Shown here: piece after piece, positions 17,680 through 25,964 of the stretch
Layout of the letters: each line of letters begins with the position of its first letter
Position numbering within the stretch: the first letter of the stretch is position 1
Origin: Psychroflexus longus
GTDB lineage: Bacteria; Bacteroidota; Bacteroidia; Flavobacteriales; Flavobacteriaceae
Length of the DNA stretch: 64,000 nt
NCBI RefSeq assembly: GCF_020164595.1
Contig: NZ_JAIQZE010000001.1
Location: forward strand, 310,001-374,000
Direction of reading: 5' to 3'
Notes under the pieces: generated by a model
Told to the model about the DNA's origin: nothing
Seen by the model: the letters and a program-made list of their open reading frames with translations, nothing else
Database searches by the model: none
Position numbers and translations under genes: made by a program

Positions 17680-19059
17680 TTATTGTACAATAATGTCTCC
17701 GTTCATTGAGCCGTGAACAGTACAAATATAGTCAGCGATTTCGTCTGCTAACTCTTGAGTAAGAGTGAAGCTAAATTCTGCACCAGATGTCTGGAGGTCT
17801 ACTCCAGCATCTCCTTCAAAAGACCCTTCAGCACTCATACTTAAAAGAGGATTTCCAGCATCGTCTCTGATCTCGAATGGATGTGGACCAAAACCTGTTA
17901 CTGATAATTCATAACGAGTACCAACTGTCAAAGTCCATGTACTATTATTTTCATTTAAATTAGTCACATTAGCGCCTTCAGTAATAGCACTTACAAAATA
18001 AGCACTAGCACCGTCATTATCAACTGTCATTACGACAACATTAGAAGCTTCTGTTAATTCTGGAATAAGCACACCATCTATAACATGTACTACTCCGTTT
18101 TCAATTTCTACATCAGCTGTAATAACATTTCTTACAGTTCCTTCTGAATCTGTCACTGTTACTTCGCTACCAGATCTTGTCACTGTAATTTCTTGATCTC
18201 CTGCTAGAGTTGGAAAAGTTTGCTCACCTTCGGCTAAATCTTCAGCAAAAGCTACTGCAGGAACAACGTGAAACCCTAAAACAGTTTGAAGATTTTCAAC
18301 ACCTCCAATAGCAGCTATTAATTCTTCTAAGGTTTGAGCCTCAAATCTTTCCAAAGCAGCTCCGAAAGCTTCATCCGTTGGAGCAAATACAGTAATTGCA
18401 TCTGCACCTAAAAGAGTTGCTCCAAGACCGTCGACAGCATTTACTGCATCTAGCAAAAGATTAAGATCTGCAGCTTCTGCAGCTTCAACTAAATTTGGTA
18501 AGTTTTCAGGTAATTCTGGAATAAGTACACCATCTATGACATGTACTACCCCATTTTCAATTTCTACATCAGCTGTAATAACATTTCTTACAGTTCCTTC
18601 TGAATCTGTCAATGTCACTTCGCTGCCAGATCTTGTCACTGTAATTTCTTGATCTCCTGCTAGAGTTGGAAAAGTTTGCTCACCTTCTGCTAGATCTCCA
18701 GCAAAAGCTACTGCAGGAACAACGTGAAACCCTAATACAGTTTGAAGATTTTCAACACCTCCAATAGCAGCTATTAATTCTTCTAAGGTTTGAGCCTCAA
18801 ATCTTTCCAAAGCAGCTCCGAAAGCTTCATCCGTTGGAGCGAATACAGTAATTGCATCTGCACCTAAAAGAGTTTCTCCAAGCCCATCAACAGCACCTAC
18901 TGCATCTAATAAAAGATTAAGGTCTGCAACTTCTGCAGCTTCAACTAAATTTGGCACGTCTCCTTGTGGTAGGACAACTGTAGCATCATCGTCACTTGAA
19001 CAAGATACTGAAGCAGTTACTAAAACAGCTAAAAGCATAAATTTTGATAGTAATTTCAT
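17680..19059 (-). CDS. Lipoprotein with two FAS1 (fasciclin) domains and a C-terminal cupredoxin domain
   Basis: A 459-residue lipoprotein with anchor Cys20 (TASVSC) followed by an acidic SSDDDA stretch, a pattern linked to surface export in this phylum. Residues about 37-187 and 189-339 are two FAS1 domains, each with TVFAPTDEAF and GVVHVIDGVLIPEL, and they are almost identical to each other. Residues about 343-459 resemble a plastocyanin-like domain with a complete type-1 copper set: His393 (GPHPFEI), then Cys446, His449 and Met452 in YICTVHGSM. FAS1 domains mediate adhesion in other systems. A copper-binding or electron-transfer role for the last domain is inferred from the ligands. An ECF-like promoter lies upstream. 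Confidence 0.88.
   Translation of the reverse strand: MKLLSKFMLLAVLVTASVSCSSDDDATVVLPQGDVPNLVEAAEVADLNLLLDAVGAVDGLGETLLGADAITVFAPTDEAFGAALERFEAQTLEELIAAIGGVENLQTVLGFHVVPAVAFAGDLAEGEQTFPTLAGDQEITVTRSGSEVTLTDSEGTVRNVITADVEIENGVVHVIDGVLIPELPENLPNLVEAAEAADLNLLLDAVNAVDGLGATLLGADAITVFAPTDEAFGAALERFEAQTLEELIAAIGGVENLQTVLGFHVVPAVAFAEDLAEGEQTFPTLAGDQEITVTRSGSEVTVTDSEGTVRNVITADVEIENGVVHVIDGVLIPELTEASNVVVMTVDNDGASAYFVSAITEGANVTNLNENNSTWTLTVGTRYELSVTGFGPHPFEIRDDAGNPLLSMSAEGSFEGDAGVDLQTSGAEFSFTLTQELADEIADYICTVHGSMNGDIIVQ
18056..18954 (-). repeat. Direct 443-bp repeat encoding the two FAS1 domains
   Basis: The segments 18056-18498 and 18512-18954 are direct copies offset by 456 bases (152 codons). By eye I count about 22 mismatches, roughly 95 percent identity, with many silent. 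This points to a recent in-frame duplication or to ongoing gene conversion. Confidence 0.9.
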
Positions 19060-19082: not shown

Positions 19083-19113
19083 ATAAGACAAGTTGAAAAC
19101 AGAAGTTACTACC
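19083..19113 (-). promoter_or_regulatory. Candidate ECF-type promoter of the FAS1-cupredoxin gene
   Basis: On the reverse strand GGTAG (19109-19113) is followed by 17 bases and TTGTCTTAT (19083-19091), 23 bases before the ATG. The same arrangement occurs upstream of the 4xFAS1 gene and, with one change, upstream of the lipoprotein gene at 21246. A TTGTTAA at 19138-19144 is also shared with the 4xFAS1 gene at the same distance. It does not look like the TAnnTTTG promoters. Confidence 0.55.
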
Positions 19114-19244
19114 ACAGAATTTGAGTTTAGCATATCATTAACAATGGAGGCGTGTTTATACAATTAAGATTTATTCCCTCTTATAAAAGCTAATTAACTT
19201 TCAAATAAGGTTTTAAGTAAATCAATAGCCTGGACAACACCAAC

Positions 19245-19273
19245 AAAAAGAGTCCAGCTTTTGCTGGACTCTT
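19245..19273 (-). terminator. Intrinsic terminator of the 4xFAS1 gene
   Basis: AAGAGTCCAGC at 19248-19258 pairs perfectly with GCTGGACTCTT at 19263-19273 around TTTT. On the reverse strand a T run follows the stem. Confidence 0.85.
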
Positions 19274-19299
19274 AAAATCTATTTGATTTTCAATAATTT

Positions 19300-21126
19300 C
19301 TACTCTTCTGGAAGCATTACAGTATCAATGGCATGTATCACACCATTAGTAGCTTGCACATCAACAGCGATAACACCGATTTCTGTATTTCCAGCACCAT
19401 CTGTCAGATCGGCAATATTCTCACCAGTTCCAGGCAATGTTACAGTAATGTTAGAACCTTCTAATGACGGTACTGAAGCACCATCTGTCAAATCTCCAGA
19501 TCTTATATTTGATTCTGCAATGACATGATGACTAAGCACAGCACTCAAGGTTGGTTCATCAGGAACTGTAATCGCATCAAAAGCTGAGTTGACTGGAGCG
19601 AAAACTGTGAATGGTGAATTTGCAGTTCCTGAAAGTACATTTACAAAATCTGTATCAGCAGCTTGAAGTGCTCCTGCCAGTGCTGAAAAATTTGGATCTG
19701 CTGTAGCGAAAGTTACTACGGTAGGTAATTCAATAACTTCGTCTACGATATGAACAACACCATTGGCTGCTTCATTGTTTGCACCAGTTACTTCTGAAAT
19801 ACCATTAAGAACGACCCCATTTTCTACATTGATGTAGAAGCTTAAATTATTTTCTGTATCTCCATAAGTCGCAAGGGAATTGGTGTAGCTTGTACTCAAA
19901 TCAGTAGAAAGTGCTGTTCCTGATAAAACATGATTTAATAAAACTTGAGTAACAACTTCAACAGGAAGATCCTCAAGAGCATTATTACCTAGAAAAGTTG
20001 CAAACGCAGCGTTCGTCGGTGCAAATACTGTGTAATCGGCAGCTCTATCTGCCAAAACATCGTCTAAACCAGTATACTGCAAAGCAGCAACTAGACTAGA
20101 AAGGTCATCATTCATCATCGCAAGACCAGTAATAGTTGGATCAATCACATCAAGGATTTCATTTGGCAATAAAACTTTATCAACGGCATGAACCACACCA
20201 TTGTTAGTCTGAACGTCTACAACATCAATATTTGCATTAATCGTTGAAGCATCGCTAATTTGTGGATTGTCAGATAAGTCAAATACTAAATCTTCCCCCT
20301 GTAATGTTGTTGCAGATAATCCAGTAGTGAGATCTCCTGATCTCACATTACTCCCGGCAATCACATGATACTCTAATACAGTGGCTAAAGTTTCAGGGGC
20401 AATATCATTAAGACTCTGTACACCAAGTGCTGCTAGTAAATCTTCAAAAGCGGAATTGGTTGGCGCAAATACTGTAAAAGGTGAACTTTCAGAACCTGAA
20501 AGTATGTCTACGTAATTTGTAGTTTCTGTACTTGCACGCTGTAAAGCAGCTACAAGCGTAGAAAATTCTGGGTTTGCAAGAGCCTGTGTAACAACACTCG
20601 GTAAACCAATAACTGCATCCACTTCGTGCACAACGCCATTGGTCGCCACAATATCTGGAGTAGTGACACTAGAAACACCATTAACTGTTACTCCGTTTTC
20701 TGTGTTAATAAATAAACTAAGATTAGCTTCAGAAGCACTACCTATCCCCAGAGAGTTCACATAACCTGTAGACAAATCTGCCGCCAAAACTCTTCCTGTA
20801 ACAACATGGTTTAAAAGAACTTCTCTTAAAAGATCTTCTGGCACTTCATCAAGACTTGAAAATCCATTGTCTTGCAAAAAGGCACTAAATGCATCATTTG
20901 TAGGTGCAAATACGGTAAGATTTCCACTTCCTCCAACAAATGGTGTTACGAGGTCTGTGCGCTCAAGAGCCGCTAGTAATGAAGAAAATTGGTCATTTTC
21001 TGTTACCAAATCAGCAATTGTCGGATCTCCAGAAGGAGGAGTTACTGGAGCATCATCGTCGTCTGAACATGATACTGAAGCGGTTGCAATAATTGCTAGA
21101 AGCAATAATTTTGATAAAAATTTCAT
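19300..21126 (-). CDS. Lipoprotein with four FAS1 (fasciclin) domains
   Basis: A 608-residue lipoprotein with anchor Cys20 (TASVSC) and a following SDDDDAP stretch suited to surface export; its signal peptide closely resembles that of the FAS1-cupredoxin protein. Four FAS1 domains follow, each with TVFAPTN/VFAPVN and a GVVH-VD ending. Domains 1 and 3 resemble each other (both with LLNHV, ADLSTGYVNSL / TDLSTSYTNSL), as do domains 2 and 4 (NVRSGDLTTG / NIRSGDLTDG), so the protein seems to have grown by duplication of a domain pair. It is likely a cell-surface adhesin or matrix protein. It is transcribed towards the FAS1-cupredoxin gene but has its own terminator and its own copy of the ECF-like promoter. 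Confidence 0.9.
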   Translation of the reverse strand: MKFLSKLLLLAIIATASVSCSDDDDAPVTPPSGDPTIADLVTENDQFSSLLAALERTDLVTPFVGGSGNLTVFAPTNDAFSAFLQDNGFSSLDEVPEDLLREVLLNHVVTGRVLAADLSTGYVNSLGIGSASEANLSLFINTENGVTVNGVSSVTTPDIVATNGVVHEVDAVIGLPSVVTQALANPEFSTLVAALQRASTETTNYVDILSGSESSPFTVFAPTNSAFEDLLAALGVQSLNDIAPETLATVLEYHVIAGSNVRSGDLTTGLSATTLQGEDLVFDLSDNPQISDASTINANIDVVDVQTNNGVVHAVDKVLLPNEILDVIDPTITGLAMMNDDLSSLVAALQYTGLDDVLADRAADYTVFAPTNAAFATFLGNNALEDLPVEVVTQVLLNHVLSGTALSTDLSTSYTNSLATYGDTENNLSFYINVENGVVLNGISEVTGANNEAANGVVHIVDEVIELPTVVTFATADPNFSALAGALQAADTDFVNVLSGTANSPFTVFAPVNSAFDAITVPDEPTLSAVLSHHVIAESNIRSGDLTDGASVPSLEGSNITVTLPGTGENIADLTDGAGNTEIGVIAVDVQATNGVIHAIDTVMLPEE

Positions 21127-21152
21127 AGTATTTTAAGTTTAATTGTTCATAA

Positions 21153-21183
21153 ATAAGACAATACAAAACAAAAAAGTACTACC
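21153..21183 (-). promoter_or_regulatory. Candidate ECF-type promoter of the 4xFAS1 gene
   Basis: On the reverse strand GGTAG (21179-21183), 17 bases, then TTGTCTTAT (21153-21161), 26 bases before the ATG. TTGTTAA at 21208-21214 lies at exactly the same distance from GGTAG as in the FAS1-cupredoxin gene. Confidence 0.55.
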
Positions 21184-21245
21184 TGAAAAATTTCATTTAG
21201 TATCAATTTAACAAAACAAGGGGAGCGTCTTAATAAGAATAGTAT

Positions 21246-21896
21246 CTAGTTACAAGTTCTAACAACAGATTGGAAAGTCTCGATAAATTCTGAATTGGAG
21301 TTTACAGTTATGTTTTCAGAATTATTATCCTGGAGCGATAGAGGATATTGAATTTCATAAACATCATTATCATGAAGCTCCTCAAAATAAATGTAGGCGT
21401 CCTTATTATTTGTAAGGTTAATAGTTTTAAAAACGCCGTGGAGTTCATTAAATTGTTTTACAGTAAGTGAATAAACCAAATCAACACAAGAATTTGGCTC
21501 AATATCAAGACTGCTTTCACATGACAATTTATGAGAGTTTAATTCTGAAAACGAATTCACTTCAAAAATTTGATAGTTTTTTAGCGCAATCGAAACAGGA
21601 TATAGAATTTCAATTTCATCAGAAACATTTAAGTAAGAAAGTTCTTCGGCAGACGTAAATGTTTTAATGTTTGAATTGACTTTTAATTGATAAGGGAATA
21701 CCAGACTAAAACATGAGGTATTATCCACATGATCATCAAAGGAGGCGTCATGTGAAGTAATTGACTTTAAAATAGAAGTCAATTCAGAAGAGTTTTGGGA
21801 TGTATCAAAGACTTCAACGATTTGATTATCGTCATTGTAACATCCTGAAAAAATAATTATTAAAAATAATAATATATACTTATAGAATCTGATCAT
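21246..21896 (-). CDS. Lipoprotein of unknown function with repeated modules
   Basis: A 216-residue lipoprotein (anchor Cys19 in FSGCYNDD). I do not recognise a named family. The mature part seems built from repeating units of about 35-45 residues, each with an [I/L]xYPxS-like strand followed by a V-N/S-S-xE[F/L] element: CFSLVFPYQLKVNSN with TSAEEL, IEILYPVSIALK with VNSFSEL, CVDLVYSLTVKQF with a looser end, and YEIQYPLSLQ with VNSNSEF. Four cysteines (near 62, 126, 137 and 215) could pair outside the cytoplasm. It is divergent from the ECF sigma gene, a position typical of a target or partner, and carries the ECF-like promoter element. Function is not inferred beyond that. Confidence 0.75.
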   Translation of the reverse strand: MIRFYKYILLFLIIIFSGCYNDDNQIVEVFDTSQNSSELTSILKSITSHDASFDDHVDNTSCFSLVFPYQLKVNSNIKTFTSAEELSYLNVSDEIEILYPVSIALKNYQIFEVNSFSELNSHKLSCESSLDIEPNSCVDLVYSLTVKQFNELHGVFKTINLTNNKDAYIYFEELHDNDVYEIQYPLSLQDNNSENITVNSNSEFIETFQSVVRTCN

Positions 21897-21913
21897 CGTT
21901 CATTAATTCGTTT

Positions 21914-21944
21914 ATTAGACAACTTAAATACTAAAAACCCTACT
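21914..21944 (-). promoter_or_regulatory. Candidate ECF-type promoter of the unknown lipoprotein gene
   Basis: On the reverse strand GTAG (21940-21943), 17 bases, then TTGTCTAAT (21914-21922), 17 bases before the ATG. Compared with the two FAS1 promoters the first G is A and one base of the -10-like part differs; the spacing is identical. Confidence 0.5.
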
Positions 21945-21973
21945 CAAAGAGTTTTTTTATATTTTTGGATCAT

Positions 21974-22498
21974 ATGAAAGAGTCTCACTCACTTGTCGAA
22001 AATTGCTGTGAAAAATCAGTATTTTCAAAACTTCATCAAAGATACGCCAAAGATTTACACGATTTTATTTATTACAAATTTGGCGAGGAGCATAATCCAA
22101 AAGATAAGGTCCAGGAAGCTTTTTTAAAATTGTGGGAAAATTGCAAAAAAATCGTTCCAGAGAAAGCTAAGAGTTATTTGTTTTCTGTAGCCAATAATAC
22201 CACATTAAATGTAATCAAACACAAAAAAGTTGTTTTGAATTATGAATTGAATTATAAACAAAACAACTCTAACAATCAGGATCCGCAATTTGTTCTGGAA
22301 GAAAAAGAATATTTAGACAAATACCAAAAAGCTATATCCAATCTCACTGAAGAAAAAAGAGCTGCCTTTCTTTTGAATAGAGTTGAAGGCAAAAAGCACA
22401 GGGAAATAGCAGAAATTCTTGGTATATCAAAAAAAGCTGTAGAAAAGAGAATATATACAGCCCTTGAGCAATTACGTAAAGAAATTGAGGGAATTTAA
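21974..22498 (+). CDS. ECF-subfamily RNA polymerase sigma factor (FecI-like)
   Basis: A 174-residue sigma-70 factor of the ECF type. Region 2 is seen in RYAKDLHDFIYYKF and VQEAFLKLWENC, and region 4 in the helix-turn-helix KHREIAEILGISKKAVEKRI followed by YTALEQLRKEI. I chose the ATG at 21974; a TTG three codons upstream (21965) overlaps a possible TATTTTTG -7 box at 21960-21967, which argues against it. The gene leads an operon with a FecR anti-sigma factor and a TonB receptor, the FecI-FecR-FecA arrangement in which receptor occupancy at the surface releases the sigma factor. Its likely targets are the nearby genes with the GTAG-N17-TTGTCT element (inference). Confidence 0.93.
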   Translation: MKESHSLVENCCEKSVFSKLHQRYAKDLHDFIYYKFGEEHNPKDKVQEAFLKLWENCKKIVPEKAKSYLFSVANNTTLNVIKHKKVVLNYELNYKQNNSNNQDPQFVLEEKEYLDKYQKAISNLTEEKRAAFLLNRVEGKKHREIAEILGISKKAVEKRIYTALEQLRKEIEGI

Positions 22499-22542
22499 CA
22501 GACGATAGGTAGGAGAATTAATGGTTTAGTTGTCAAATTAAT

Positions 22543-23451
22543 ATGAATACAAGAAAAGGAGACTTAATTAATAAGTGGCTCAAAAATGAGTTATCGGAGG
22601 AAGAATTAAAGGCGTTTAAAAAGTTAGACGACTATGATTCTTACATGATGATATCAGAAAAAGCGAAATATTTTAAATCCCCTGATTTTAATACTGATGA
22701 TTCTCTCAAAAACATCGAGTCAAAAATTAAAGACAAAAAATCGTCGTCATATAAAATCAGATATCAATACTTAGCAGCAGTTGCAGCGATTTTAATTGTG
22801 GCTTTTTCTATTTTCAAAATATTCAACATCAATTCTGACGTTAAAATCTTCAAGACAGAAATTGCCAAGACTCAAACTATTAATCTACCAGATAATTCGA
22901 CCGTTAATCTAAGTGCTAATTCACTAATTTCTTTTGATAATTCTGCTTGGGATACAAAAAGAAATTTGACTTTGGAAGGTGAAGCTTTTTTTGATGTTGA
23001 AAAAGGAAAAAAATTCACTGTAGAAACATCCTATGGGAAAATTCAGGTTTTAGGCACTCAATTTAATGTAAAAGCAAGAAAGTATGGCTTTGAAGTTGTC
23101 TGCTACGAAGGCTCTGTACAAATAACCGTTGAAGATAGAATTTACGTCCTTGAAGAAAGAGATCATTTTACTTTGAGAAACAAAAAAATCTCAAAAAGTA
23201 AAACCGTTTTCACATCTCCAGATTGGAAAAGGAACTCTACAATTTTAAAAAGTGCGGCTTTGGATCTGGTTCTCAAAGAGTTTAAGAATTATTATGACGT
23301 CGATTTTGAAACTTCAAACGTGGATACCTCAAGACAGTACACAGGAAGTTTTGTTCATAATGACTTAGAAAATGCATTAAAATCTATTACTTTGCCATTA
23401 GACTTGACCTATGAAATAAATAAGCAGAAGGTCGTTTTAAAAGCTAAGTGA
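22543..23451 (+). CDS. FecR-family anti-sigma factor
   Basis: A 302-residue single-pass inner membrane protein. The N-terminal 75 residues are cytoplasmic and should bind the sigma factor. A helix follows at about 78-95 (YLAAVAAILIVAFSIFKIF). The periplasmic FecR domain shows TINLPDNSTVNLSANSLISF, LTLEGEAFFDVEKGKKFTVET and VLGTQFNVKA, then the C-terminal DUF4974 (STN-like) region that contacts the receptor. It transmits the signal from the TonB receptor to the ECF sigma factor. It lies 44 bases after the sigma gene, and its stop overlaps the GTG start of the receptor gene. Confidence 0.95.
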   Translation: MNTRKGDLINKWLKNELSEEELKAFKKLDDYDSYMMISEKAKYFKSPDFNTDDSLKNIESKIKDKKSSSYKIRYQYLAAVAAILIVAFSIFKIFNINSDVKIFKTEIAKTQTINLPDNSTVNLSANSLISFDNSAWDTKRNLTLEGEAFFDVEKGKKFTVETSYGKIQVLGTQFNVKARKYGFEVVCYEGSVQITVEDRIYVLEERDHFTLRNKKISKSKTVFTSPDWKRNSTILKSAALDLVLKEFKNYYDVDFETSNVDTSRQYTGSFVHNDLENALKSITLPLDLTYEINKQKVVLKAK

Positions 23452-25964
23452 AATTTGTAAACCGATTTTTATTCTTTCTTTTTGCATTTGGTTTGTCTTT
23501 CATTTCAAATGCTCAAAAGATTGAAAAAGTAAATGAATTATCATATTTCATCAATACATTAGAAAAGGAACACAATGTCCTTTTTTCATATGCAGACGAT
23601 GAAATAGAAAATATTATTGTGCCTGGTCAAAAGAAGTTTTCAACCTTAGAAGAAAATCTTCGGTTTTTGAGAGAGGTTACTCCTTTCGATTATTCATACC
23701 ATTCGGAATCGAATATTTTAATCATTCCCAAATCTGGGTTTAAACTATTTTGTATTGCTGCAAATGATAGGCTTACAAAAAAAGGAATAGCTGATTCTTA
23801 TCTTCAAGTAAACAAATATATATTCCATTCTGATAGCAATGGCCAATTCAAAATCCCCATAAATGCCTCTGTGGTCAATGCTTTCATAAGCGCAGAGGGC
23901 TATATTTCCGAACAAGTACAAATAGATACCAGAAAAAAGGAGGATTGTCCTGTTTTTGAACTTTCCCCATTTTATGAAGTTTTAGATGAAGTTCTCCTTA
24001 AAAATTTTTTAACCAATGGAATTAGTAAGTTCACATCTGGAATTTTAGAGATCAATTATGAAGATTTTGGACTTTTACCGGGTTTGGTGGAGCCTGATGT
24101 TTTGCTGAGTCTAAAATCTTTACCTGGAATAACAAGCCGAAATGAAAGCGTCTCTTATTTAAATGTGAGAGGTGGAACTCATGACCAAAATTTGATTCTA
24201 TGGGATGGCATTAAAATGTATCATACTTCTCATTTTTTTGGTATGATTTCAGCCTTCAATCCTTATATGACTAAAAAGGTAAAGCTTATTAAAAATGGCA
24301 CTTCATCAAAATTTGGGGACGGAGTATCGAGTCTTATAGATATGCAAACCAACGATTCTATTGTCAATGATTTTAAAGCAGAGGTTGGCTTGAATCTTAT
24401 CAATACCGATGCTATCATTGAGTCGCCCCTAAGTCCAAACTCTTCTGTTGAATTTTCATTTAGGAAGTCCATCAATTCCCTTTGGGAAAGCCCTACTTAT
24501 GACCGTTATTTTGATAAAACGTTTCAAAATACAGAAGTTACAAATCAGGACTCACGGGTCTCTCGACAAAACAATGAATTTTCATTTTATGATTCTAGTC
24601 TGAGTTATAAAAACAAACTTTCTAGTAAGGATTATTTAAAAGCTAATTTGTTTTTTAGCCATGATGAATTTTCATTAAATAGATTTGATATTGAAAGAAA
24701 TAGTGTAAACATAAGATCTAGTGATCTAAACCAAACGAATGTTGCTGGAGGAATTTATTACAAAAGGAACTGGACAAAAACAACAAAAACTGAAATACAG
24801 CTTTATGGGTCCAAATACAACCAAAACTCGGTAAATGCTGACTTTTTGGATCAGCAAAGACTTGAGCAAATTAACGAAGTTCAAGAAATAGGATTAAGAG
24901 TAAATCTAAAGACAAACCTTTATAAAAACATTGCTTTTGAAGCAGGCTACCAATTGAATGAAACTGGAATTTTAAATTCTGAAGAAATTGATAATCCAAG
25001 CTTCTTTAGGAGAACTCAAAATTCAATTCTTACGAATAGTATTTACTCACAGATCAATTACCAATCTGAGGATTCCAGACTTAATCTGCAACTTGGAGGA
25101 CGCTTGAATCACTTTTCAAAATTTAAAAAAGTAGTTTTAGAACCAAGATTTAATCTGAGTTATAAACTCTTTGATGATTTATTTCTTGAACTTCTTGCCG
25201 AAGAAAAAAGCCAGGTTACTTCCCAGGTTATTGATTTACAAACAGACTTCCTCGGAGTAGAAAATCGAAGATGGGTATTATCCAATCTGGAGAATCGCCC
25301 AATAATTCAAAGTCAACAGATTTCAACTGGATTCAATTATATCAAACCAAGCTGGTTTTTTAATGTAGATGTATTTTATAAAAAGGTAGAAGGGATCACG
25401 ACACAAGGCCAGGGATTTCAGAATCAGTTTAGATTCGCACAGGATCACGGAAGCTACGAAGTAAAAGGAATTGACTTATTAATCAATAAAAATTTGAACC
25501 GTATATCCACCTGGGTAAGTTACAGTTTATCTGAAAACAATTATAATTTTGAATCGCTTCAACCTTCAAGATTTCACAGTAATCTGGACATAAGGCATAT
25601 CATCTCAACCGGCTTAACTTATGAGCAAAGTGGATTAAAATTATCAGCTGGTTTCAACTGGCATTCTGGAGTTACAGTTACTTTTCCTTCGGATGATCAA
25701 CCACTAAATCCAGAGGAAATTCTGTTTGAAGCTCCCAACTCTGGAAGACTTTCAGACTATTTCAGGCTAGACTTCTCCTCTACCTATACCTTCCCTGTTT
25801 TTAACAAAGTCCAGGCTTTAGCTGGATTTTCTATGTGGAATGTCTTAGGCAATTCCAATGTTTATAATCAATTTTATAGGCTGGATGAAGCTCAAAACAT
25901 CCAAAGCTTCAAACAAAATGGATTAGACTTTACTCCTAATTTTGTTTTTAGATTAAGATTCTAA
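23448..25964 (+). CDS. TonB-dependent receptor with N-terminal STN signalling domain
   Basis: An 838-residue outer membrane receptor starting with a GTG that overlaps the fecR stop (GTGA). Signal peptide to about residue 23. Residues about 25-100 match the STN (secretin/TonB N-terminal) fold, needed for contact with FecR. Then a carboxypeptidase-regulatory-like segment, a plug (DVLLSLKSLPGITSRNESVSYLNVRGGTHDQNLILWDGIKMYH) and a beta-barrel ending in FVFRLRF. It is a transducer-type receptor as well as a transporter; the ligand is unknown. Compared with a SusC protein it is shorter, has no SusD partner and lacks the SusC signature. Confidence 0.9.
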   Translation: MKFVNRFLFFLFAFGLSFISNAQKIEKVNELSYFINTLEKEHNVLFSYADDEIENIIVPGQKKFSTLEENLRFLREVTPFDYSYHSESNILIIPKSGFKLFCIAANDRLTKKGIADSYLQVNKYIFHSDSNGQFKIPINASVVNAFISAEGYISEQVQIDTRKKEDCPVFELSPFYEVLDEVLLKNFLTNGISKFTSGILEINYEDFGLLPGLVEPDVLLSLKSLPGITSRNESVSYLNVRGGTHDQNLILWDGIKMYHTSHFFGMISAFNPYMTKKVKLIKNGTSSKFGDGVSSLIDMQTNDSIVNDFKAEVGLNLINTDAIIESPLSPNSSVEFSFRKSINSLWESPTYDRYFDKTFQNTEVTNQDSRVSRQNNEFSFYDSSLSYKNKLSSKDYLKANLFFSHDEFSLNRFDIERNSVNIRSSDLNQTNVAGGIYYKRNWTKTTKTEIQLYGSKYNQNSVNADFLDQQRLEQINEVQEIGLRVNLKTNLYKNIAFEAGYQLNETGILNSEEIDNPSFFRRTQNSILTNSIYSQINYQSEDSRLNLQLGGRLNHFSKFKKVVLEPRFNLSYKLFDDLFLELLAEEKSQVTSQVIDLQTDFLGVENRRWVLSNLENRPIIQSQQISTGFNYIKPSWFFNVDVFYKKVEGITTQGQGFQNQFRFAQDHGSYEVKGIDLLINKNLNRISTWVSYSLSENNYNFESLQPSRFHSNLDIRHIISTGLTYEQSGLKLSAGFNWHSGVTVTFPSDDQPLNPEEILFEAPNSGRLSDYFRLDFSSTYTFPVFNKVQALAGFSMWNVLGNSNVYNQFYRLDEAQNIQSFKQNGLDFTPNFVFRLRF

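Follow-up and report, generated by a model that had tools for sequence, protein, structure and literature searches.

Bacteroidota carry many extracytoplasmic function (ECF) sigma factors, including those of the polysaccharide-locus systems, in which an ECF sigma factor and an anti-sigma factor accompany SusCD. To our knowledge, few of their promoters are known. The closest described systems lie partly outside this phylum. In Serratia marcescens, HasI controls hasS, which encodes the anti-sigma factor, along with the receptor gene, but does not act on its own gene; fecIR of Escherichia coli forms one message and is not autoregulated either (PMC9249621, in the available part of its text). Within Flavobacteriaceae, a map of transcription starts in Flavobacterium psychrophilum yielded six motifs, SM1 to SM6; the available part of that report describes SM6 as ECF-type, with CGT in its -10 box and type IX secretion system (T9SS) genes among its targets, and places one SM6 promoter before a putative regulatory RNA, Rfp11 (PMC9723704). 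Here we examine 64,000 nucleotides of Psychroflexus longus (contig NZ_JAIQZE010000001.1, positions 310,001 to 374,000 of the forward strand; hereafter the window), in which a first-pass annotation had noticed the element GTAG-N17-TTGTCTwAT upstream of three neighbouring lipoprotein genes and had proposed that the adjoining ECF sigma factor drives a small regulon of exported proteins through it. Our analysis suggests, with a probability of roughly 0.86, that the element is a promoter (-35 gGTAGG or GTAGT, spacer of 16-17 bases, -10 TTGTYWWAT) of the FecI-like ECF sigma factor encoded at 21974-22498. Searches of the open-licence PubMed Central literature listed no paper describing this promoter or the gene block.

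The Element in the Window and in the Genome

The three copies are exact minus-strand matches at the places first reported, where the end coordinates had been given one base too long. Two read GTAG-N17-TTGTCTTAT and precede the genes of lipoproteins with two (19083-19112) and four (21153-21182) FAS1 domains; the third, GTAGG-N16-TTGTCTAAT, precedes the gene of a divergent lipoprotein (21914-21943). Their distances to the following ATG are 23, 26 and 17 bases, in line with the 17 to 26 bases originally reported. A further copy with one mismatch, GTAGG-N16-TTGTCAAAT, lies on the plus strand at 22509-22538, ending 4 bases before the ATG of fecR. As the annotation had also observed, the element differs from TAnnTTTG, the housekeeping -7 box of Bacteroidota (consensus as given in the available part of PMC9723704), which none of the four copies matches.

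In the whole genome of 2,949,729 bases the exact pattern occurs three times, always in the window, and no equally good match exists elsewhere. A first-order Markov model predicts 0.005 occurrences per window and 0.24 per genome of equal size, and the Poisson probability of at least three in the window is 2e-8. The relaxed pattern GTAGK-N16-TTGTYWWAT has four matches in the genome, namely those of both FAS1 genes, the lipoprotein gene and fecR, all in this block, against one for the reversed control. The genome counts, the relaxed search and the Markov expectation thus led us to reject an origin of the element by chance or base composition. Eleven genome copies carry one mismatch; nine of these lie inside or opposite long open frames, and the other two are the fecR copy and L011, which lies on a small contig. 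A one-mismatch copy at G000:C42:18367-18396 (L014) stands within a longer open frame, with the ATG of a small lipoprotein gene some 36 bases downstream, and is a possible extra weak target.

A Probable Promoter Shared by Related Genomes

The comparison covered 149 Flavobacteriaceae genomes, our own included, each from a different genus by genome codes. The sigma factor has matches in 104 of them (E 1e-20) and the divergent lipoprotein in 99 (E 1e-3). We fetched 60 regions, 49 chosen by sigma matches and 11 by lipoprotein matches, the presence of the lipoprotein being favoured in the latter by the manner of their choice; a lipoprotein of the divergent family stands beside sigma in 58 of the 60, and fecR and the receptor gene in 59. 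A second set was made up of named loci, the top 80 among at least 542 and thus close relatives. Sigma and fecR are present in every one of them, the receptor gene in 78, the lipoprotein gene in 66 and a FAS1 gene in 12. Psychroflexus gondwanensis is the nearest named relative among the matches listed, with a sigma factor 79% identical. The block is therefore no purely local curiosity, a view that we rejected since sigma, lipoprotein, block and promoter all recur across relatives.

Counting word pairs independently of the annotated motif, we found TAGG-N17-TGTT before 50 of 63 fecR genes and 42 of 62 lipoprotein genes, compared with 13 and 10, respectively, for the best shuffled pair. The motif-free count thus recovers GTAGG-N17-TGTT before both genes; upstream of the receptor gene it is not among the top pairs. 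The consensus of the relatives is gGTAGG-N16-TTGTTWTAT, usually 2-45 bases from the start codon, and with up to two mismatches it occurs before 43 of 62 lipoprotein and 58 of 63 fecR genes (the window counted in both). A matrix was built from 99 sites (95 distinct) of relatives, with the window left out, and applied at a threshold of 12 bits to 73 named loci, after removal of seven shared with the training set by an identical sigma. Sites were found before 71 of 73 fecR genes, 55 of 59 lipoprotein genes and 9 of 12 FAS1 genes. In the matrix scan of the named loci, the real sequences gave 173 matches against five in their block-shuffled versions (2.13 Mb, both strands counted). No such site lies upstream of the sigma gene in any of the 80 named loci; a sigma-A box is weakly suggested there (16 of 82 in sense, versus 8 in antisense and 6 in shuffled sequence). 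The exact form GGTAGG-N16-YTGTTWTAT has 154 matches in the 149 genomes against eight for the reversed pattern (totals summed from the per-genome table).

Which Sigma Factor Probably Reads the Element

The -35 sequence varies with residue 158 of the sigma factor, in region 4.2 (numbering of the 174-residue protein). Modules with K have GTAGG (119) or CTAGG (1), those with Y have TCAGG or TAAGG (15), and the single one with N has AAAGG. Two of 145 module rows had been dropped beforehand because their site did not end in AGG; in the 136 unique modules the pairing is consistent throughout (136/136), generally at both promoters of a module. Covariation of the -35 with region 4.2 is what direct contact predicts. 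Given that the element also accompanies the sigma module across genera at two core places, the assignment of the element to the local ECF sigma factor is, in silico, well supported.

The alternative that survives best is that the element is an ECF promoter read, alone or together with the local sigma factor, by another one. The genome carries a paralogous sigma-fecR-receptor-lipoprotein block with a different -10 (G000:C6:19539-20808, L093), whose sigma factor is 50% identical to the local one and shares its K in region 4.2, with a GTAGG site before its own fecR. However, the -10 elements of this block read GTGTT and TTGTT instead of TTGTC, its lipoprotein -35 is TTAGG, the relaxed genome search returns no copy there, and between genera the element travels with the local sigma type, so that such a reader appears unlikely. 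Less probable still, and in our view very unlikely, is a transcription-factor binding site without promoter function: two blocks at a single spacing would also fit a dimeric activator, but the spacing is constant across genera, the distance to start codons is usually 2-45 bases, and the element covaries with sigma region 4.2. A copied upstream region or a chance product, devoid of any role, is in our view a hardly credible explanation of the three sites. The upstream regions of the two FAS1 genes do align (score 19 over 140 bases), but that of the lipoprotein gene scores a poor -8 and -16 against them, in a comparison that did not include the fecR region; moreover, chance would place three in the window at 2e-8, the site is conserved in relatives, and the matrix test on the named loci already contradicts this reading.

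Several observations weaken the case for the element itself or for its assignment to the local sigma factor as a promoter. The case is built entirely from sequence. One-mismatch copies are not enriched as a class (14 genome matches with up to one mismatch, versus 17 for the reversed pattern), and the window sites depart from the family form: all four read TTGTC where most relatives have TTGTT, and GGTAGG-N16-YTGTTWTAT has no match in the genome. On the relatives-trained matrix the site at 19083 reaches 8.5 bits, versus 14.4 for 21153, 20.6 for 21914 and 23.7 for the fecR copy, and the alignment of the two FAS1 upstream regions probably reflects one duplicated promoter, two independent events being unlikely. 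In the named loci a 12-bit site is absent before 2 of 73 fecR and 4 of 59 lipoprotein genes; among the 12 with FAS1 genes, L145 has no FAS1 site and those of L146 and L151 score 9.9 and 10.6 bits. No site precedes the further-downstream FAS1 paralogues of six loci (L137, L141, L143, L146, L151, L157), nor, in L159, the FAS1 gene that lies nearer. With regard to specificity, on a tree built without region 4.2 residue 158 and the -35 each change twice, forming one independent pair, so that the covariation amounts to two events rather than 136. Other sigma positions covary equally or nearly so, and an L/F position six residues past 158 has the same mutual information; the contact residue is therefore not pinned. 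The K and the GTAGG site of the C6 block make cross-reading possible. Finally, the position of the fecR site, 4 bases from the ATG, implies a leaderless message, which would be unusual but possible, leaderless messages making up 5.5% in F. psychrophilum (PMC9723704, in its available part).

The Gene Block

The genes beside the lipoproteins bear out the earlier description of an ECF sigma/FecR/TonB-receptor group, with Pfam matches for all three. The sigma factor (21974-22498, plus strand; 174 residues from the ATG, the open frame being listed from a TTG at 21965) has regions 2 (PF04542, 34.5 bits) and 4 (PF08281, 56.9 bits) and matches TIGR02937 (82.6 bits, cut-off 42.9); its score of 115.1 with TIGR02985, the NCBIfam Bacteroidetes sigma subfamily, lies below the curated cut-off of 126.4. 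Next to it on the same strand follow the FecR-type anti-sigma factor (22543-23451; FecR PF04773, 71.1 bits; FecR_C PF16344, 34.3 bits) and, overlapping its end, the TonB-dependent receptor (23448-25964; Pfam Plug). Among seven receptors, those of the relatives L134 and L091 have an STN-like N-terminus by the FecR_C model, over its cut-off; the window receptor has no match at E 0.5.

On the minus strand lies the gene of the divergent lipoprotein (21246-21896, 216 residues), whose family adjoins sigma in most relatives examined. Pfam has no match for it at 1e-3, and no SusD-like protein was recognised among the proteins tested, namely this lipoprotein, both FAS1 proteins and the product of the gene after the receptor. 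A structural model (pLDDT 88.7) has no match in the PDB at E 0.001, the best being a VIA-align Z of 5.3 over 54 residues; as judged from this model, the fold search argues neither for a new fold nor for a known one. Five cysteines, that of the lipobox included, are invariant across 12 short forms of the protein. The single long form modelled (L192, mean pLDDT 74) best matches, in its C-terminal part, a DUF4847 protein at E 0.004. Further along the same strand are the four-FAS1 lipoprotein gene (19300-21126; Pfam Fasciclin, 315 bits in four stretches) and the two-FAS1 gene (17680-19059; 164 bits in two stretches). The latter had been described as a FAS1-cupredoxin gene; its FAS1 domains stand, and the cupredoxin has no Pfam match at 1e-3, the likeness of the C-terminal stretch being visible by eye only.

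FAS1 Genes and a Second Box

FAS1 loci are found in Psychroflexus, Aquimarina and several unclassified Flavobacteriaceae, as well as in G012 and G118, the latter with a site before the FAS1 gene at two mismatches (L035, L056); the FAS1 gene of L075 has no site. Where a lipoprotein was found in FAS1 loci it is short (216-228 residues), compared with up to 978 residues elsewhere; four loci in which the analysis found no FAS1 gene (L083, L138, L150, L174) likewise have short forms, of 216-220 residues. The sigma tree shows four changes in FAS1 association. A general FAS1 promoter was considered and rejected: none of 21 module-free FAS1 genes (16 fetched regions, one gene at a region edge) has a 12-bit site upstream. 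Membership of FAS1 genes in the set is limited to some lineages, among them Psychroflexus and Aquimarina.

All 13 FAS1 promoters of at least 8 bits (12 loci) share an invariant second box, GTTAA-N5-T-N2-TAAA, at a fixed 30 bases before GTAG. In the window it lies on the minus strand at 19126-19142 for the two-FAS1 gene and at 21196-21212 for the four-FAS1 gene. The TTGTTAA that the first-pass annotation had seen in both FAS1 copies is part of it; the distance is indeed identical in the two, at 32 bases to GTAG and not 29. A narrower expression of the box matches 7 of 13 FAS1 regions and none of the 63 lipoprotein or 80 fecR regions. The composite of box and promoter has two matches in the genome, both at FAS1 genes, and over the 149 genomes it occurs in five: our own (two) and G037, G041, G105 and G121 (one each), with none for the reversed control. 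None of the latter four precedes a FAS1 gene; the composite stands before an exported protein with a sorting-type tail in G105 (L246, G105:C100:48941) and before a Rieske-like lipoprotein in G037 (L248, G037:C187:16825), both named by eye. The half-sites, 11 bases apart, might point to an OmpR/PhoB-type regulator, which is a guess from their spacing. For comparison with a Pho box, a PstS gene was sought in the genome with the model TIGR02136, and none matched.

Other Targets and a Small RNA Candidate

In a sample of 30 loci among the 154 exact family sites, eight sites precede fecR, seven a lipoprotein of the divergent family and 15 something else, of which eight look exported by eye. Some exact sites have no gene downstream and are followed instead by a conserved short sequence and a terminator. 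These loci, in other genera (L305-L319 and L321, e.g., G126:C22:810011-810078, minus strand), may encode a small RNA, which would comprise the GTAGG/TTGTT promoter, a 5' end resembling the start of the lipoprotein (by eye), the conserved TTTAGGTTGGTTTTTGATT and a terminator in which pairs covary.

Searched alone, the conserved sequence occurs in nine genomes (four for the reversed control); in eight of these it is preceded by a promoter site of 13.0 to 34.0 bits, in the ninth by none, and four of the eight were not seeds. A covariance model from the 3' 66 bases of the candidate, with no promoter included, retrieved seven more genomes at 59.9 bits or above, all seven with an upstream site of at least 20 bits, and in G102 a model match of 49.5 bits has an upstream site of 30.0 bits. 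Further matches in G050 (50.8 bits) and G120:C2 (52.7 bits) are outside the upstream-site count. The seven weaker matches examined (up to 43 bits, L322-L328) have no upstream site above 3.5 bits. Seven of the loci were tested against Rfam and have no match at its thresholds. No convincing copy was found in our own genome, where no model match exceeds 37.2 bits, a score that ordinary terminators also reach; a scan of the window together with 18 other loci gave two weak, terminator-like matches.

A Proposed Circuit

In the proposed mechanism, the receptor would sense a ligand, FecR would be relieved, and the freed sigma factor would transcribe its own anti-sigma factor, the receptor and the exported lipoproteins. 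In such a circuit the receptor would feed back positively and FecR negatively, and FAS1 genes might take a second input at the box that lies 30 bases upstream; transcription of the sigma gene would depend on something else. A ligand of the receptor as the trigger is inferred from the FecR/TonB-receptor architecture alone. The regulon first proposed was in part correct: the sigma assignment is well supported by sequence comparison, whereas the target list was incomplete, missing the fecR-receptor operon and a family-wide set with clade-specific additions.

A broader proposal, to which we give even odds, is that of an undescribed surface-signalling regulon throughout Flavobacteriaceae, with a fixed core, in which the sigma factor would drive its own anti-sigma factor, the receptor and the divergent lipoprotein, and with cargo swapped between clades. 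The cargo would be either FAS1 lipoproteins, whose promoters would join the sigma site with the 11-base-spaced GTTAAA/GCTAAA repeats of a second regulator, or a small RNA under sigma control (UUUAGGUUGGUUUUUGAUU followed by a terminator). The 5' end of this RNA would, by eye, copy the translation start of the lipoprotein, and the RNA might serve as a decoy or silencer of surface-protein messages. Silencing of surface-protein messages is known from the sigma-E RNAs of E. coli. For one sigma type, promoter, targets and specificity region can be read from sequence across the family, which makes its regulons predictable from the genome, and FAS1 surface proteins become linked to a surface-signalling switch. 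The conserved small RNA candidate behind an ECF-type promoter would not be the first in the family, as judged from Rfp11 (PMC9723704, available part).

Comparison with Described Systems

By its genes and sites, the block appears to be a variant of FecI-type surface signalling, new as such. It resembles E. coli FecI-FecR-FecA in its protein families and in the logic of sigma factor, anti-sigma factor and receptor, but differs in having a sigma-type promoter between the sigma and anti-sigma genes. In this respect it is closer to HasI-HasS-HasR of Serratia, with sigma factor, FecR-like anti-sigma factor and receptor, a sigma-type site before the anti-sigma gene (71/73) and none of at least 12 bits before the sigma gene, a likeness judged by motif only; unlike in Has, the targets are lipoproteins instead of heme uptake genes, and the host belongs to Flavobacteriaceae. 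With the polysaccharide-locus systems of Bacteroidota it shares an ECF sigma factor, FecR and a TonB-dependent receptor, in contrast to which no SusD-type protein was recognised here, the lipoprotein being without Pfam or PDB match. SM6 of F. psychrophilum is likewise an ECF-type motif from the same family with an RNA among its targets, whereas in the available part of that report none of SM1 to SM6 is described as GTAGG/TTGTT.

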